Source of the DNA: Nocardioides panacis
GTDB lineage: Bacteria; Actinomycetota; Actinomycetes; Propionibacteriales; Nocardioidaceae
Direction: 5' to 3'
Length of the DNA stretch: 64,000 nucleotides
Assembly (NCBI RefSeq): GCF_019039255.1
Contig: NZ_CP077062.1
Span: 1,984,001-2,048,000 of the forward strand
Positions 11,040 through 42,380 of the stretch are shown in pieces; the first letter of the stretch is position 1; every line of letters starts with the position of its first letter. A program made the translations under genes and the position numbers. The notes beneath the pieces were generated by a model, which saw nothing but the letters and a program-made list of their open reading frames with translations, did not search any database and was not told the DNA's origin.

Positions 11040-11139
11040 CGTCTCGGACGCTACGCAGGCCACATGACGGGAGCATGAAGCCTGGAGGGCGGACCGGGCG
11101 GTCGGTGCGGGCCGCGGCGTGGCGTGCACACTCGTCGTC

Positions 11140-38271: not shown

Positions 38272-38390
38272 CGCGGCCATGCTGAGCGTCGAACGGGGCC
38301 GGCTGGGCGCCGGTCGACCGGGCCCTCGGCCGGGCAGACCCACGCAGGTCCCCCCTCGCGCCAAGGTTCGACCCCCTGGCGATCGCGTCG

Positions 38391-41207
38391 GTGGCGGTCC
38401 TGGTCGGCCTCGGCCTGGCCAACCTCGCGGCCCTCGGCGACCGCGCGATGGTCCAGCACCAGCTGGTCGTCGACGCGGCCGGGGTGGCTCTCTTCCTGGT
38501 GCTGCTGCGATGGCGCTCTGACGGTCTGCGGTGGCTCGGGTGGGCCTGCTACGTGGTGAGCCTGGTGCTCCTGATGACGGTCGACGTGCTCGGGTCGACC
38601 GTCAACGGCGCTCGCCGATGGCTCGATGTGGGCTCGTTCACCATGCAGCCCTCCGAGCTCGCCAAGCTCGGTCTGCTGCTGGTCCTGGCACAGGTGCTCG
38701 GCAGCGACCGCCCCTGGCCACGCCGGCTCGCCGCGGCCGTGGTGGTGGCGGCACTGCCGATCGCTCTCGTGGTCACCGAGCCGGACCTGTCGACCTCCGC
38801 GGTCCTGTGCGCGGTGACCGCCAGCATGCTGGTGCTCGGCCGGATCCCGCTCAAGGCGCTGGCAGTCTTCCTGGGGGCCGCCCTGCTGGTGCTGCCGTTC
38901 GGCGAGCACCTGCTGCACCCCTACCAGCAGGAACGGCTGCACTCCTTCCTCAGCGGCTCGACGAGCGTGAACGGGTCGGGCTGGGCGATCCTGCAGATGC
39001 ACGTCGCGCTGGCTTGGGGCGGCCTGACCGGCGGCACGGAGAACCCGTTGCACCGGCTGGTGTCGTTGTACCTGCCCGAGCGGGAGACCGACCTCGCCTT
39101 CGCCAGCCTGGTCGAGCAGCACGGGATCCTGGCCGGTTCGCTGGCCGTGCTGGCCGCGGTCGTCCTGGTGTGGCGGATCGTCGGCGCCAGCCGTCGCGCG
39201 TGGAGCCGTCCGGCGGGGTTGGCTGCGGCCGGCTTCGCCGCGCTGCTGAGCGTCGAGGTCGCGATCTCGGTCGCGGGCAACCTCGGCCTGGTCCCGACCG
39301 CGGGTGTCCCCTTTCCGCTCCTCAGCTACGGCGGTACGGCGGCCGCCGTCCACATCGCCACGGTCGGACTGGTGCTCGCCCTGCGCGCCGACGGGGAGAG
39401 CCACCAGCTCTGGACCCTCCCGGACCTGGTCCAGCTGCGCCCGCGCCTGGCCCGCACCACCGCGGTCGCGGTCAGCGCCACCCTCATCTTCCTGGTCGGC
39501 TTCGCCTGGCAGCTGCAGAGCACCGGCGGCACCCAGCTGCGTGCGACCGCCCTGCGCCAGATGCTGCGGTGCACGGAGGTCACCGCGGCGCGCGGCGAGA
39601 TCACCGATCGGCACGGTGTTCCGCTCGCGGTCGACGTCGGCCGCGACCTGGTGTCCACGGTGCCGGCGCTGGTCCGCCCCCGCGACGTGCCGCGGCTCGC
39701 CGCGCTCACCGCCAGGCCGGTCAGCGTCCTGAGGCGGTTGCTCCTGCGGCACCGGGCGAGCCTCGACCTCGAGGTCGCCTCCCTTCCCCCGCCGGCCGGT
39801 CGACGGGTCCGCCAGGCCCGGATCCCCGGTGTCGTCGTCATCCCCGAGACCCGCCGGCGCTACCCCCGGGGCGGCCAGCTCGGCCCCCTGCTGGGGTGGA
39901 CGGGCGTGGCCACGGCCGACGACATGGCGCGCTGGCCGGACCTGCGGCTGGGAGCCGTCGTCGGGCGGTCCGGGCTGGAGCGGATCTACGACCCGATCCT
40001 GCGCGGCACCGACGGTCGTCGGTGCGTCTACGTCACGCCCGCGGGGAACCCGGCCCGGCTCGGCCCCTACACCCCGCCCCGGCGGGGCAGCACGGTGCGG
40101 CTCGCTCTCGACCTGGGACTGCAGCGCCGCCTGACAGGGGCGCTTGCCACCGTGCTGCGCGGGGTGCCGGGACAGCCCCGCGGGGACCTCGGCGGTTCCG
40201 TGGTGCTCGATCCGCGCAACGGCGAGGTCCTCGCGATGGCCAGCCTGCCGTCGTACCACAGCCGGGTGTTCGGCCCTCCGGTGCACAACCAGCGCCTGGC
40301 CCGACTGGCCCGCCGCCCGGCGAGCCCGATGCTCGAGCACGTGACGCAGGTGGCGGCCCCGCCCGGGTCGACCTTCAAGCTGGTCGTCGCCGCGGCGAAC
40401 ATGCGGCGAGGGCTGGTGTCGCCGTACCGGGTGCTACCCGGCGGCGGCTCCTGGACGTTGGGCAACCACACCTTCGGCAACTGGATGACCCTGCCGGCGC
40501 AGAACCTGATGGAGGCGATCGCCTGGTCCAACGACGTCTACTTCTACCAGCTCGCCTGGGCCCTGGGCCCCGGTCCGATCATCCACACCGCCCGCAGCCT
40601 GGGCGTCGGCCGGCCGACCGGCATCGACCTGCCCGGCGAGACCGGCGGGTACCTCGGGACCCCCGCCTCGGTCACCCGGGGCGGCGGCACCTGGTACCCC
40701 GGCTCCACGGTCATCCTCGGCATCGGCCAGGGCTACCTGACCGTGACGCCGTTGCAGGACGCGCTGTGGACAGGGGCGGTGGCGACCGGAGCCAGGGTGA
40801 CGCCCCACCTCGGTCTCTCCTACCGCCACGGCGACGGGCCGTCCACCCGTCTGCGGTGGCCGAGGGCGCACCGGCTCCCCTACGCCGGCAAGCTCGGGCC
40901 GGTCCGGGCCGGCATGGCCCTCGCGGCGACCTCCGGCACGGCCAGCATCCTGACCGCGCTGCCGGTCCGGTCGGGCGCGAAGACCGGCTCCGCGGAGGAC
41001 CCGTCCGCCCCCCACGGGGCACCCGACTCGTGGTTCACCGCGGCCGCTCCGTTGCGGCACCCCCGCATGGTGGCGACGTCGTTCGTGCGCGGTGGCGGCC
41101 ACGGGGTGAGCACCTCAGGAGCGGTGGTGCTGCCGGTGATGCAGTACTTCTTCGCCCACGAGCGGCAGATCCTGGACGTCGGACCGCCGTCGGGGCACCG
41201 CCGCTGA
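38391..41207 (+). CDS. SEDS (FtsW/RodA) polymerase fused to a class B penicillin-binding protein
   Basis: About 938 residues from GTG 38391. Residues 1-330 are a SEDS glycosyltransferase: RRWLDVGSFTMQPSELAKLG, ERETDLAFASLVEQHG (catalytic acidic loop) and SYGGTAA. A linker and a further helix (about 354-376) lead into a class B PBP: RGEITDRHGVPLA, GRSGLERIYDPILRGTDG, then transpeptidase motifs PGSTFKL (Ser near 659), SND near 713 and KTGS near 863. The expected SEDS opening RFDPLAIASVAVLVG begins upstream of 38391 without a start codon. Removing one C from the six-C run at 38350-38355 joins it to an ATG at 38279 (975 residues in total). One chain would both polymerise and cross-link peptidoglycan. 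Confidence 0.9.
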   Translation: MAVLVGLGLANLAALGDRAMVQHQLVVDAAGVALFLVLLRWRSDGLRWLGWACYVVSLVLLMTVDVLGSTVNGARRWLDVGSFTMQPSELAKLGLLLVLAQVLGSDRPWPRRLAAAVVVAALPIALVVTEPDLSTSAVLCAVTASMLVLGRIPLKALAVFLGAALLVLPFGEHLLHPYQQERLHSFLSGSTSVNGSGWAILQMHVALAWGGLTGGTENPLHRLVSLYLPERETDLAFASLVEQHGILAGSLAVLAAVVLVWRIVGASRRAWSRPAGLAAAGFAALLSVEVAISVAGNLGLVPTAGVPFPLLSYGGTAAAVHIATVGLVLALRADGESHQLWTLPDLVQLRPRLARTTAVAVSATLIFLVGFAWQLQSTGGTQLRATALRQMLRCTEVTAARGEITDRHGVPLAVDVGRDLVSTVPALVRPRDVPRLAALTARPVSVLRRLLLRHRASLDLEVASLPPPAGRRVRQARIPGVVVIPETRRRYPRGGQLGPLLGWTGVATADDMARWPDLRLGAVVGRSGLERIYDPILRGTDGRRCVYVTPAGNPARLGPYTPPRRGSTVRLALDLGLQRRLTGALATVLRGVPGQPRGDLGGSVVLDPRNGEVLAMASLPSYHSRVFGPPVHNQRLARLARRPASPMLEHVTQVAAPPGSTFKLVVAAANMRRGLVSPYRVLPGGGSWTLGNHTFGNWMTLPAQNLMEAIAWSNDVYFYQLAWALGPGPIIHTARSLGVGRPTGIDLPGETGGYLGTPASVTRGGGTWYPGSTVILGIGQGYLTVTPLQDALWTGAVATGARVTPHLGLSYRHGDGPSTRLRWPRAHRLPYAGKLGPVRAGMALAATSGTASILTALPVRSGAKTGSAEDPSAPHGAPDSWFTAAAPLRHPRMVATSFVRGGGHGVSTSGAVVLPVMQYFFAHERQILDVGPPSGHRR

Positions 41208-41243: not shown

Positions 41244-42260
41244 TCACATGGCGTCGACGAAGCTGTCCTCGTAGGCGTGCACCACGTCACGGTCACTGAG
41301 GCAGCGGGCCGCGCCCTCGGCCACGCAGGTCAACGGCCGCGCCGACATCCGCACCGGGAAGGCGAACGCGGACTCGACCAGCTTGGCGAACCCCCGCAGC
41401 TGGGTCGAGCCGCCGAAGAGCATGACCCCGTCGGTGAGGATGTCCTCGGCCGCCTGCGGAGGCAGGTCGTCGAGCGCACCCGCGAGCGCGGCGAGGATCG
41501 CGTCGACCGTCGGACGCAGCGCCTCGAGGACCTCCTCGGACTCCAGCGTCACGAGGCGCGGCCGCCCCGTGGCCAGGTCGACGCCCTGCACGACCGAGGA
41601 CAGCCCCTCGTCGAGGTCCACCCGGCACTTCAGCGCCTCCACGCTCAGCTCGCCGACGAGCAGCTGGTGCTCGGCCCGCAGGTAGCGGTGCAGCGCCAGG
41701 GTCAGCTCGTCCCCGGCGATCCGCGACGAGCGGTGGGCCAGCAGACCGCCGTAGCAGAACGCGGTGACCTCCGACGTACCCCCGCCGACGTCCATGACCA
41801 TGTGCGCCCGCGGCTCGAGCGGGTCCAACCCGCAGCCGACGGCACCGGCGATCGGCTCCGGGATCAGGCTCGGCTTGTGGATGCCGGCCTCCGCGGCCAC
41901 CTCAAGGAGGGCCCGCCGTTCCAGTGCCGTCGCGCCGGCAGGCACCTCGATCACCGCCCGGGGGCGTACCCGCTGCCATCCGGGCACCGCGACCTTGCTC
42001 ATCACCCCGACCAGGAAGCCTCGGGCTGCCTCCAGGTCGACGATCACGCCGTCGTGCAACGGCCGCATCGTCGTCAGCCCGACCGGGCAGCGGCCGACCA
42101 GGTCGCGGGCGTCGTTGCCCACCAGCAGGGGCCGCACCCGCCGTGAGCGAGCACCGGACGCCGGCACCACCATGACCGACGGCTCGTCCAGGACCACGCC
42201 GCGGCGCTGGTGGCACACCACCGTGTTGGCGGTGCCGATGTCGATGCCCAGACCGGCCAT
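41244..42260 (-). CDS. mreB: MreB/actin-like rod-shape protein
   Basis: A 338-residue actin-fold ATPase from the ATG at 42260 behind CGAGGGGG. Phosphate-1 motif GIDIGTANTVV, a connect region, the EPIAGAVGCG motif, phosphate-2 DVGGGTSEV, and the adenosine motif GVMLFGGSTQLRGF are present. It is divergent enough from housekeeping MreB (e.g. RGVVLDEPSVMVV) that it may be a paralogue. MreB filaments guide SEDS/PBP machines, and it ends 36 bases from the convergent SEDS-PBP fusion gene. No mreC or mreD is in the window. Confidence 0.85.
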   Translation of the reverse strand: MAGLGIDIGTANTVVCHQRRGVVLDEPSVMVVPASGARSRRVRPLLVGNDARDLVGRCPVGLTTMRPLHDGVIVDLEAARGFLVGVMSKVAVPGWQRVRPRAVIEVPAGATALERRALLEVAAEAGIHKPSLIPEPIAGAVGCGLDPLEPRAHMVMDVGGGTSEVTAFCYGGLLAHRSSRIAGDELTLALHRYLRAEHQLLVGELSVEALKCRVDLDEGLSSVVQGVDLATGRPRLVTLESEEVLEALRPTVDAILAALAGALDDLPPQAAEDILTDGVMLFGGSTQLRGFAKLVESAFAFPVRMSARPLTCVAEGAARCLSDRDVVHAYEDSFVDAM

Positions 42261-42380
42261 GCGGCCCCCTCGAAGACGACCCGATCGCGCCAACGTACGC
42301 GCCCCCACGGCCGCCGTCCCGGGCCATTGGTCCTCAACCGCCTCCCAGCGCAGGCTACGAACGAAGAGGGTTCCGCGCCA

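Follow-up and report, generated by a model that had tools for sequence, protein, structure and literature searches.

Class A penicillin-binding proteins (PBPs) carry a polymerase and a transpeptidase on a single chain, and their working is similar to that proposed here for a protein encoded in a window of 64,000 nucleotides from Nocardioides panacis (contig NZ_CP077062.1, positions 1,984,001 to 2,048,000). Both activities in one chain are thus known from class A PBPs (PMC8262863), but in the N. panacis protein the polymerase is of the SEDS (shape, elongation, division and sporulation) family and is fused to a class B PBP. RodA and PBP2 in the complexes of Escherichia coli (8tj3) and Thermus thermophilus (6pl5) belong to the same two enzyme classes, but are separate partners in nature, whereas here they form one chain. 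Natural fusions of this kind are already in print: one sentence in Nygaard et al. 2023 (PMC10449877) states that single-frame SEDS-PBP fusions exist and cites the genome of Rhodococcus sp. RHA1, so that the fused architecture, which a first-pass annotation of the window had presented as unusual, is not new in itself. Those fusions likewise hold SEDS and PBP in one actinomycete frame. Engineered fusions in the order SEDS then PBP are functional (PMC10449877, PMC6207328); the 8tj3 complex was made as an engineered fusion (PMC10449877), and when RodA and PBP2 were joined by a (GGGS)x3 linker, the product was largely functional in vivo (PMC6207328). The latter shares the order and has a short linker, but it is synthetic, while the natural junction measures about 20 residues and shows a conserved LW...PR pattern. 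In N. panacis the fusion gene lies between the gene of a membrane protein, here called UP1, and that of a divergent MreB, two neighbours that the first-pass annotation had missed. Among the openly licensed papers listed in our searches, none dealt with a natural SEDS-PBP fusion or with its link to MreB or UP1, and it is this setting that seems to be unreported.

The fusion gene is a stop-free frame of 973 codons (38286-41204, plus strand) with its stop codon at 41205-41207. All motifs quoted in the first-pass annotation, which had claimed a single polypeptide with SEDS and class B PBP parts, lie inside this one frame: PSELAKLG (residues 122-129), TDLAFA (268-273) and SYGGTAA (347-353) in the SEDS half, and STFK (695-698), SND (748-750) and KTGS (899-902) in the PBP half. 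Pfam identified a SEDS domain (PF01098, E 1.4e-62, 212.2 bits at a cut-off of 26.4), followed by PBP_dimer (E 2.7e-17) and Transpeptidase (E 2.8e-36). A hydropathy scan gave nine peaks in the SEDS part, to which a tenth membrane helix is probably to be added, and a separate peak at residues 392-410 ahead of the PBP ectodomain, in agreement with the membrane helix of its own that had been ascribed to the PBP. The second half thus has what characterizes a class B PBP, namely PBP_dimer and Transpeptidase domains, one membrane helix and the SxxK, SxN/D and KTG motifs. We rejected an identity as class A PBP, since Pfam reports no polymerase domain other than SEDS in the chain. The SEDS half aligns over most of its length with RodA of both E. 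coli and T. thermophilus, D269 falling at the position of the catalytic Asp in the fourth extracellular loop, and the best sequence matches of the two halves in the PDB are RodA and PBP2 of the complexes 8tj3 and 6pl5. SEDS proteins end, and class B PBPs begin, in the cytoplasm, and because of this the join is topologically natural. For PBP2, the cytoplasmic position of the N-terminal end is also stated in PMC13327600.

The coding sequence was found joined in 20 distinct copies including that of the window (the duplicates L065, L066 and L067, which by length are the contigs of L060, L106 and L104, were left out, and L069 was equated with G674 from its coordinates). Their frames measure 948 to 1038 codons from stop to stop and are open across the junction in every case; a stop or frame change at residues ~330-400, which had been named as the finding that would split the protein in two, did not occur. 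D269, S347, G349 and G350 of the SEDS half are invariant and Y348 is found in 18 of the 20 copies; the FtsW equivalents of D269 and the SYGG residues are known to matter (PMC8765783). On the transpeptidase side S695, K698, S748, K899, T900 and G901 are invariant, while SxN ends in N in 14 copies and in D in six. In five comparisons with the window copy, the ratio of nonsynonymous to synonymous substitution rates (dN/dS) ranges from 0.26 to 0.36 over the body of the gene and from 0.54 to 1.0 across the junction together with the PBP helix. The junction is the least conserved part, with 33-45% identity against 61-82% in the domains (two Nocardioides-type comparisons), while its length is nearly constant and the LW...PR pattern is kept across the 20 aligned copies. 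Judged from these alignments and substitution rates, the SEDS-PBP fusion goes far beyond what chance would give and is real, one chain that has been kept in evolution; it appears to be old and has the look of a working enzyme. A further conserved position is C429 (~39570-39572), a cysteine just before the PBP pedestal domain that was found in all 20 aligned copies.

The search for the same architecture that the first-pass annotation had proposed turned up further copies in Nocardioides-type genomes, in a second family (f94) and on Rhodococcus plasmids. At family level (E <= 1e-90) orthologues were detected in 13 of 341 genomes including the window's own, belonging to three of 26 genera, and within the genus (E <= 1e-60) in three of seven genomes. 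A class sample (E <= 1e-75) contained the fusion in 6 of 394 genomes and added three genomes of f94, where 3 of 22 genomes encode it. In a phylum sample of 396 genomes the only full-length match, among the matches listed, came from the window's own genome; weakly similar independent fusions could escape this listing. A contig scan with two short peptide patterns, which is not a census, provided five named loci: Nocardioides iriomotensis, N. pini, N. sediminis, a Nocardioides metagenome-assembled genome and one labelled Pseudonocardia. Among the 72,556 plasmid records of PLSDB, 68 had some match and three covered at least 80% of the query, namely plasmids of Rhodococcus sp. WAY2, R. pseudokoreensis and R. 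oxybenzonivorans, with 45-46% identity. Their products are annotated as 'FtsW/RodA/SpoVE family cell cycle protein', and metal, copper or arsenic genes are found near all three (L114, L115, L116). Phage records gave 30 matches, none of which reached 80% query coverage.

A tree was computed for each half, with 52 rows for SEDS and 51 for the PBP, and in both the 20 fusions form one clade with a support of 100 in the SH-like approximate likelihood ratio test (SH-aLRT). These are quick trees with SH-aLRT support only and several flagged long branches; we assigned the labels mre, dcw and pkn ourselves. Both trees put the fusion clade on the side of RodA/PBP2 and separate it from FtsW/FtsI as well as from the pair of the pknB operon, which fits a single old fusion event. 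Descent from the pknB-operon pair, in which SEDS also precedes the PBP, was rejected because the trees of both halves place the fusions apart from it. In the relative G023 a pknB-type SEDS and PBP share a 985-codon frame (L125:1087-4041, minus strand); there are undetermined residues at the junction of this frame, and it was rejected as an unreliable case of a second, independent fusion. Besides the fusion, the N. panacis genome (G000) carries three SEDS genes and six genes with a transpeptidase domain. Unfused synthases, whose presence had been raised in the first-pass annotation, are therefore at hand, and the trees assign part of them to the FtsW/FtsI, RodA/PBP2 and pknB-operon groups. Ten of 11 other Nocardioides-type genomes searched also have three further SEDS genes and the eleventh has four (G665, contamination 9%). 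Each of the three f94 hosts has two, which from their scores would be of the FtsW and the pknB-operon type.

Table 1. Features of the fusion locus, with positions counted from the first letter of the window.
Feature	Position	Strand	Basis or remark
UP1, single-pass membrane protein, 429 aa	36982..38271	+	ends 7 bases before ATG 38279
Probable true start region of the fusion gene	38279..38360	+	ATG 38279 (MLSVERG), in-frame start of relatives, alignment with L061; six-C run at ~38351-38356
Fused SEDS polymerase/class B PBP, 973 codons and stop	38286..41207	+	open frame; Pfam SEDS, PBP_dimer, Transpeptidase; 20 copies aligned
SEDS (RodA-like) domain, residues 54-367, catalytic position D269	38445..39386	+	Pfam; alignment with RodA of E. 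coli and T. thermophilus
Cytoplasmic junction, residues 372-391	39399..39458	+	open and of near-constant length in 20 of 20 copies
Membrane helix of the PBP, residues 392-410	39459..39515	+	hydropathy
PBP dimerisation/pedestal domain, residues 432-589	39579..40052	+	Pfam
Transpeptidase domain with STFK, SND and KTGS, residues 637-952	40194..41141	+	Pfam; alignment of 20 copies
Divergent MreB paralogue, convergent with the fusion gene	41244..42308	-	PF06723, E 1.4e-82; 36 bases between the stop codons

The neighbouring MreB scores far above the cut-off of its Pfam family (277.6 bits against 27), and below those of the NCBIfam models NF010539 (280.9 against 293) and TIGR00904 (258.1 against 365.75). 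It shares PF06723 and segments of the DIGTANTVV and DVGGGTSEV types with the canonical MreB of the mre operon, but differs in forming a clade of its own (17 rows, SH-aLRT 100) and in sharing 36-38% identity with seven canonical MreBs from the genus. A divergent MreB gene stands in convergent orientation beside the fusion in all 17 non-plasmid loci, close to it in 14. According to PMC13327600, MreB of E. coli binds to the N-terminus of PBP2 and to the C-terminal tail of RodA. Since the fusion joins just these two segments, its junction would be a plausible docking point for the neighbouring MreB. In the three f94 fusion hosts the module MreB is the only strong PF06723 match, all others having E values of 1e-12 or weaker, and in f94 genomes without the fusion (3 of 19 tested) there was no match or one weak one. 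MreC (PF04085) was detected in none of six f94 genomes and in six of six Nocardioides-type genomes, with a profile that also missed some control genomes.

Matches to UP1 were found beside the fusion in 15 of the 17 non-plasmid loci at E <= 1e-5, the window included, and weaker ones in the other two. The protein has one hydrophobic segment and, in its C-terminal part, three cysteines that are kept in all six aligned sequences; its start is of the GDRM type and is conserved in relatives. Neither Pfam nor NCBIfam gave a significant family match for the UP1 protein of the window, and among the matches of six orthologues up to E 5 in both databases there was no MreC or RodZ family. UP1 resembles MreC and RodZ in its single-pass layout only.

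We consider it probable that the fusion protein is a bifunctional peptidoglycan synthase of the RodA-PBP2 type in one chain. The SEDS half would polymerise lipid II, and the transpeptidase half would receive the strand within the same chain and crosslink it, as in the two-protein RodA-PBP2 complex, with the tether setting a 1:1 stoichiometry. With less confidence we infer that the adjoining divergent MreB guides this synthase, plausibly by docking at the junction, that UP1 regulates it, and that fusion, MreB and UP1 might make up a small accessory elongasome in Nocardioides-type hosts, which have the canonical synthases as well. A more far-reaching reading, which we put forward tentatively and hold to be somewhat doubtful, is that three genes form a miniature, portable elongasome, with the one-chain synthase as its core, a dedicated MreB, and UP1 as a membrane regulator that would replace MreC, MreD and RodZ. 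It would have moved between actinomycete lineages to become the sole MreB-guided wall machine of the three f94 hosts, in a lineage otherwise without one. A natural tether of polymerase and crosslinker, kept down to ~45% identity, offers a specimen in which to see which SEDS-PBP contacts matter once the pairing is guaranteed. If MreB and UP1 do belong to the fusion, this would be a very small MreB-guided wall machine, transferable as a unit into a laboratory strain, with which the minimum needs of MreB guidance can be tested.

Several observations weigh against the assignment to an MreB-guided RodA-PBP2-type synthase. The fusion did not reach the cut-off of the RodA equivalog TIGR02210 (231.0 against 336.7 bits; the FtsW model TIGR02614 stood at 187.3 against 337.5) nor that of the PBP2 equivalog TIGR03423 (333.8 against 455 bits), although the latter is still the top-scoring NCBIfam model. 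The MreB gene lies outside the operon of the fusion, since the two are convergent, and at three of the 17 loci (L104, L112 and L113) they are about 0.9 to 1.5 kb apart. Within the genus an MreB of the neighbour type occurs in three of three fusion hosts and in none of the four others, which speaks for the link, but three of these four genomes without the module are only 81-90% complete. None of the three Rhodococcus fusion plasmids had a match to MreB (the plasmids were searched, the chromosomes of these strains were not), nor did the 22.7 kb stretches surrounding the three plasmid fusions contain a match to UP1. These plasmid members of the family differ in this from the non-plasmid loci, and because they show no match to either gene, MreB and UP1 are not obligatory companions of the fusion. 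Finally, the window's own copy, whose likely start is out of frame, might be impaired.

Different explanations may be offered for the chain as such and for its role. What looks like one gene could be two neighbours that an error of sequencing or assembly has run together at the junction, and it is true that the window assembly has other one-base frame problems relative to G003 and that the apparent fusion of G023 has undetermined residues at its own junction. We nevertheless reject such an artefact, the chance of which is next to nil, as it is refuted by 19 further orthologues from other genomes or plasmids that are open there and of nearly equal length. It is also conceivable that the chain is cleaved after translation and acts as two ordinary partners. 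The low conservation of the junction would be in line with this, and a minor fraction of the engineered RodA-PBP2 fusion was cut (PMC6207328), but the near-constant junction length and the LW...PR pattern of the 20 copies speak against it and make cleavage quite improbable. Somewhat more weight, while still on the unlikely side, has to be given to a role in division or in a sporulation-like or stress-related wall synthesis instead of MreB-guided elongation, with MreB linked for other reasons. The plasmid fusions without MreB near metal and arsenic genes, the transcription of MreB and fusion toward each other and the presence of other elongation-type synthases in the hosts would all agree with such a role, whereas the position of both halves with RodA/PBP2 and not with FtsW/FtsI, and the MreB gene beside every non-plasmid copy, favour the elongation-type synthase.

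Another alternative, which we regard as unlikely, leaves the family functional but takes the window copy for a recent pseudogene, in which the offset after ATG 38279 would be a true mutation. The first-pass annotation had the gene begin at this ATG, and here it has to be corrected: the 2929 bases from 38279 to 41207 are not divisible by three, and the ATG, which opens MLSVERG, is offset from the fusion body by one base. All 12 other Nocardioides-type copies have an M-L-S-[VIL]-E-R-G start, with ATG or GTG, in the frame of the fusion, and from this start to the D of DPLA there are 90 bases in the two relatives counted, compared with 91 in the window. G+C by codon position takes on the pattern of the body from ~38355, upstream of the earliest in-frame start codon of the window copy, GTG 38391. 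This codon falls within the first membrane helix and would agree with a damaged gene. However, the body is intact and its dN/dS is like the rest. Moreover, the offset is found at a run of C, and in the same genome the gene of the canonical PBP2 shows a frame change at a run of G relative to G003 (L062 ~11482; G000:C1 ~2775481), which in itself may be an assembly error or a real lesion. Together these look like a pattern of homopolymer errors, and such an error of the assembly near the C run is the likeliest cause of the start offset. All frame breaks of the window assembly were assessed against the single relative G003, compared with which the frames of FtsW, FtsI, RodA, MreB and MreC are unbroken. 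A gene adjoining the pknB-type SEDS/PBP pair also changes frame relative to G003 (L063 ~11043-11064), near a C run, with larger differences than a plain one-base change.

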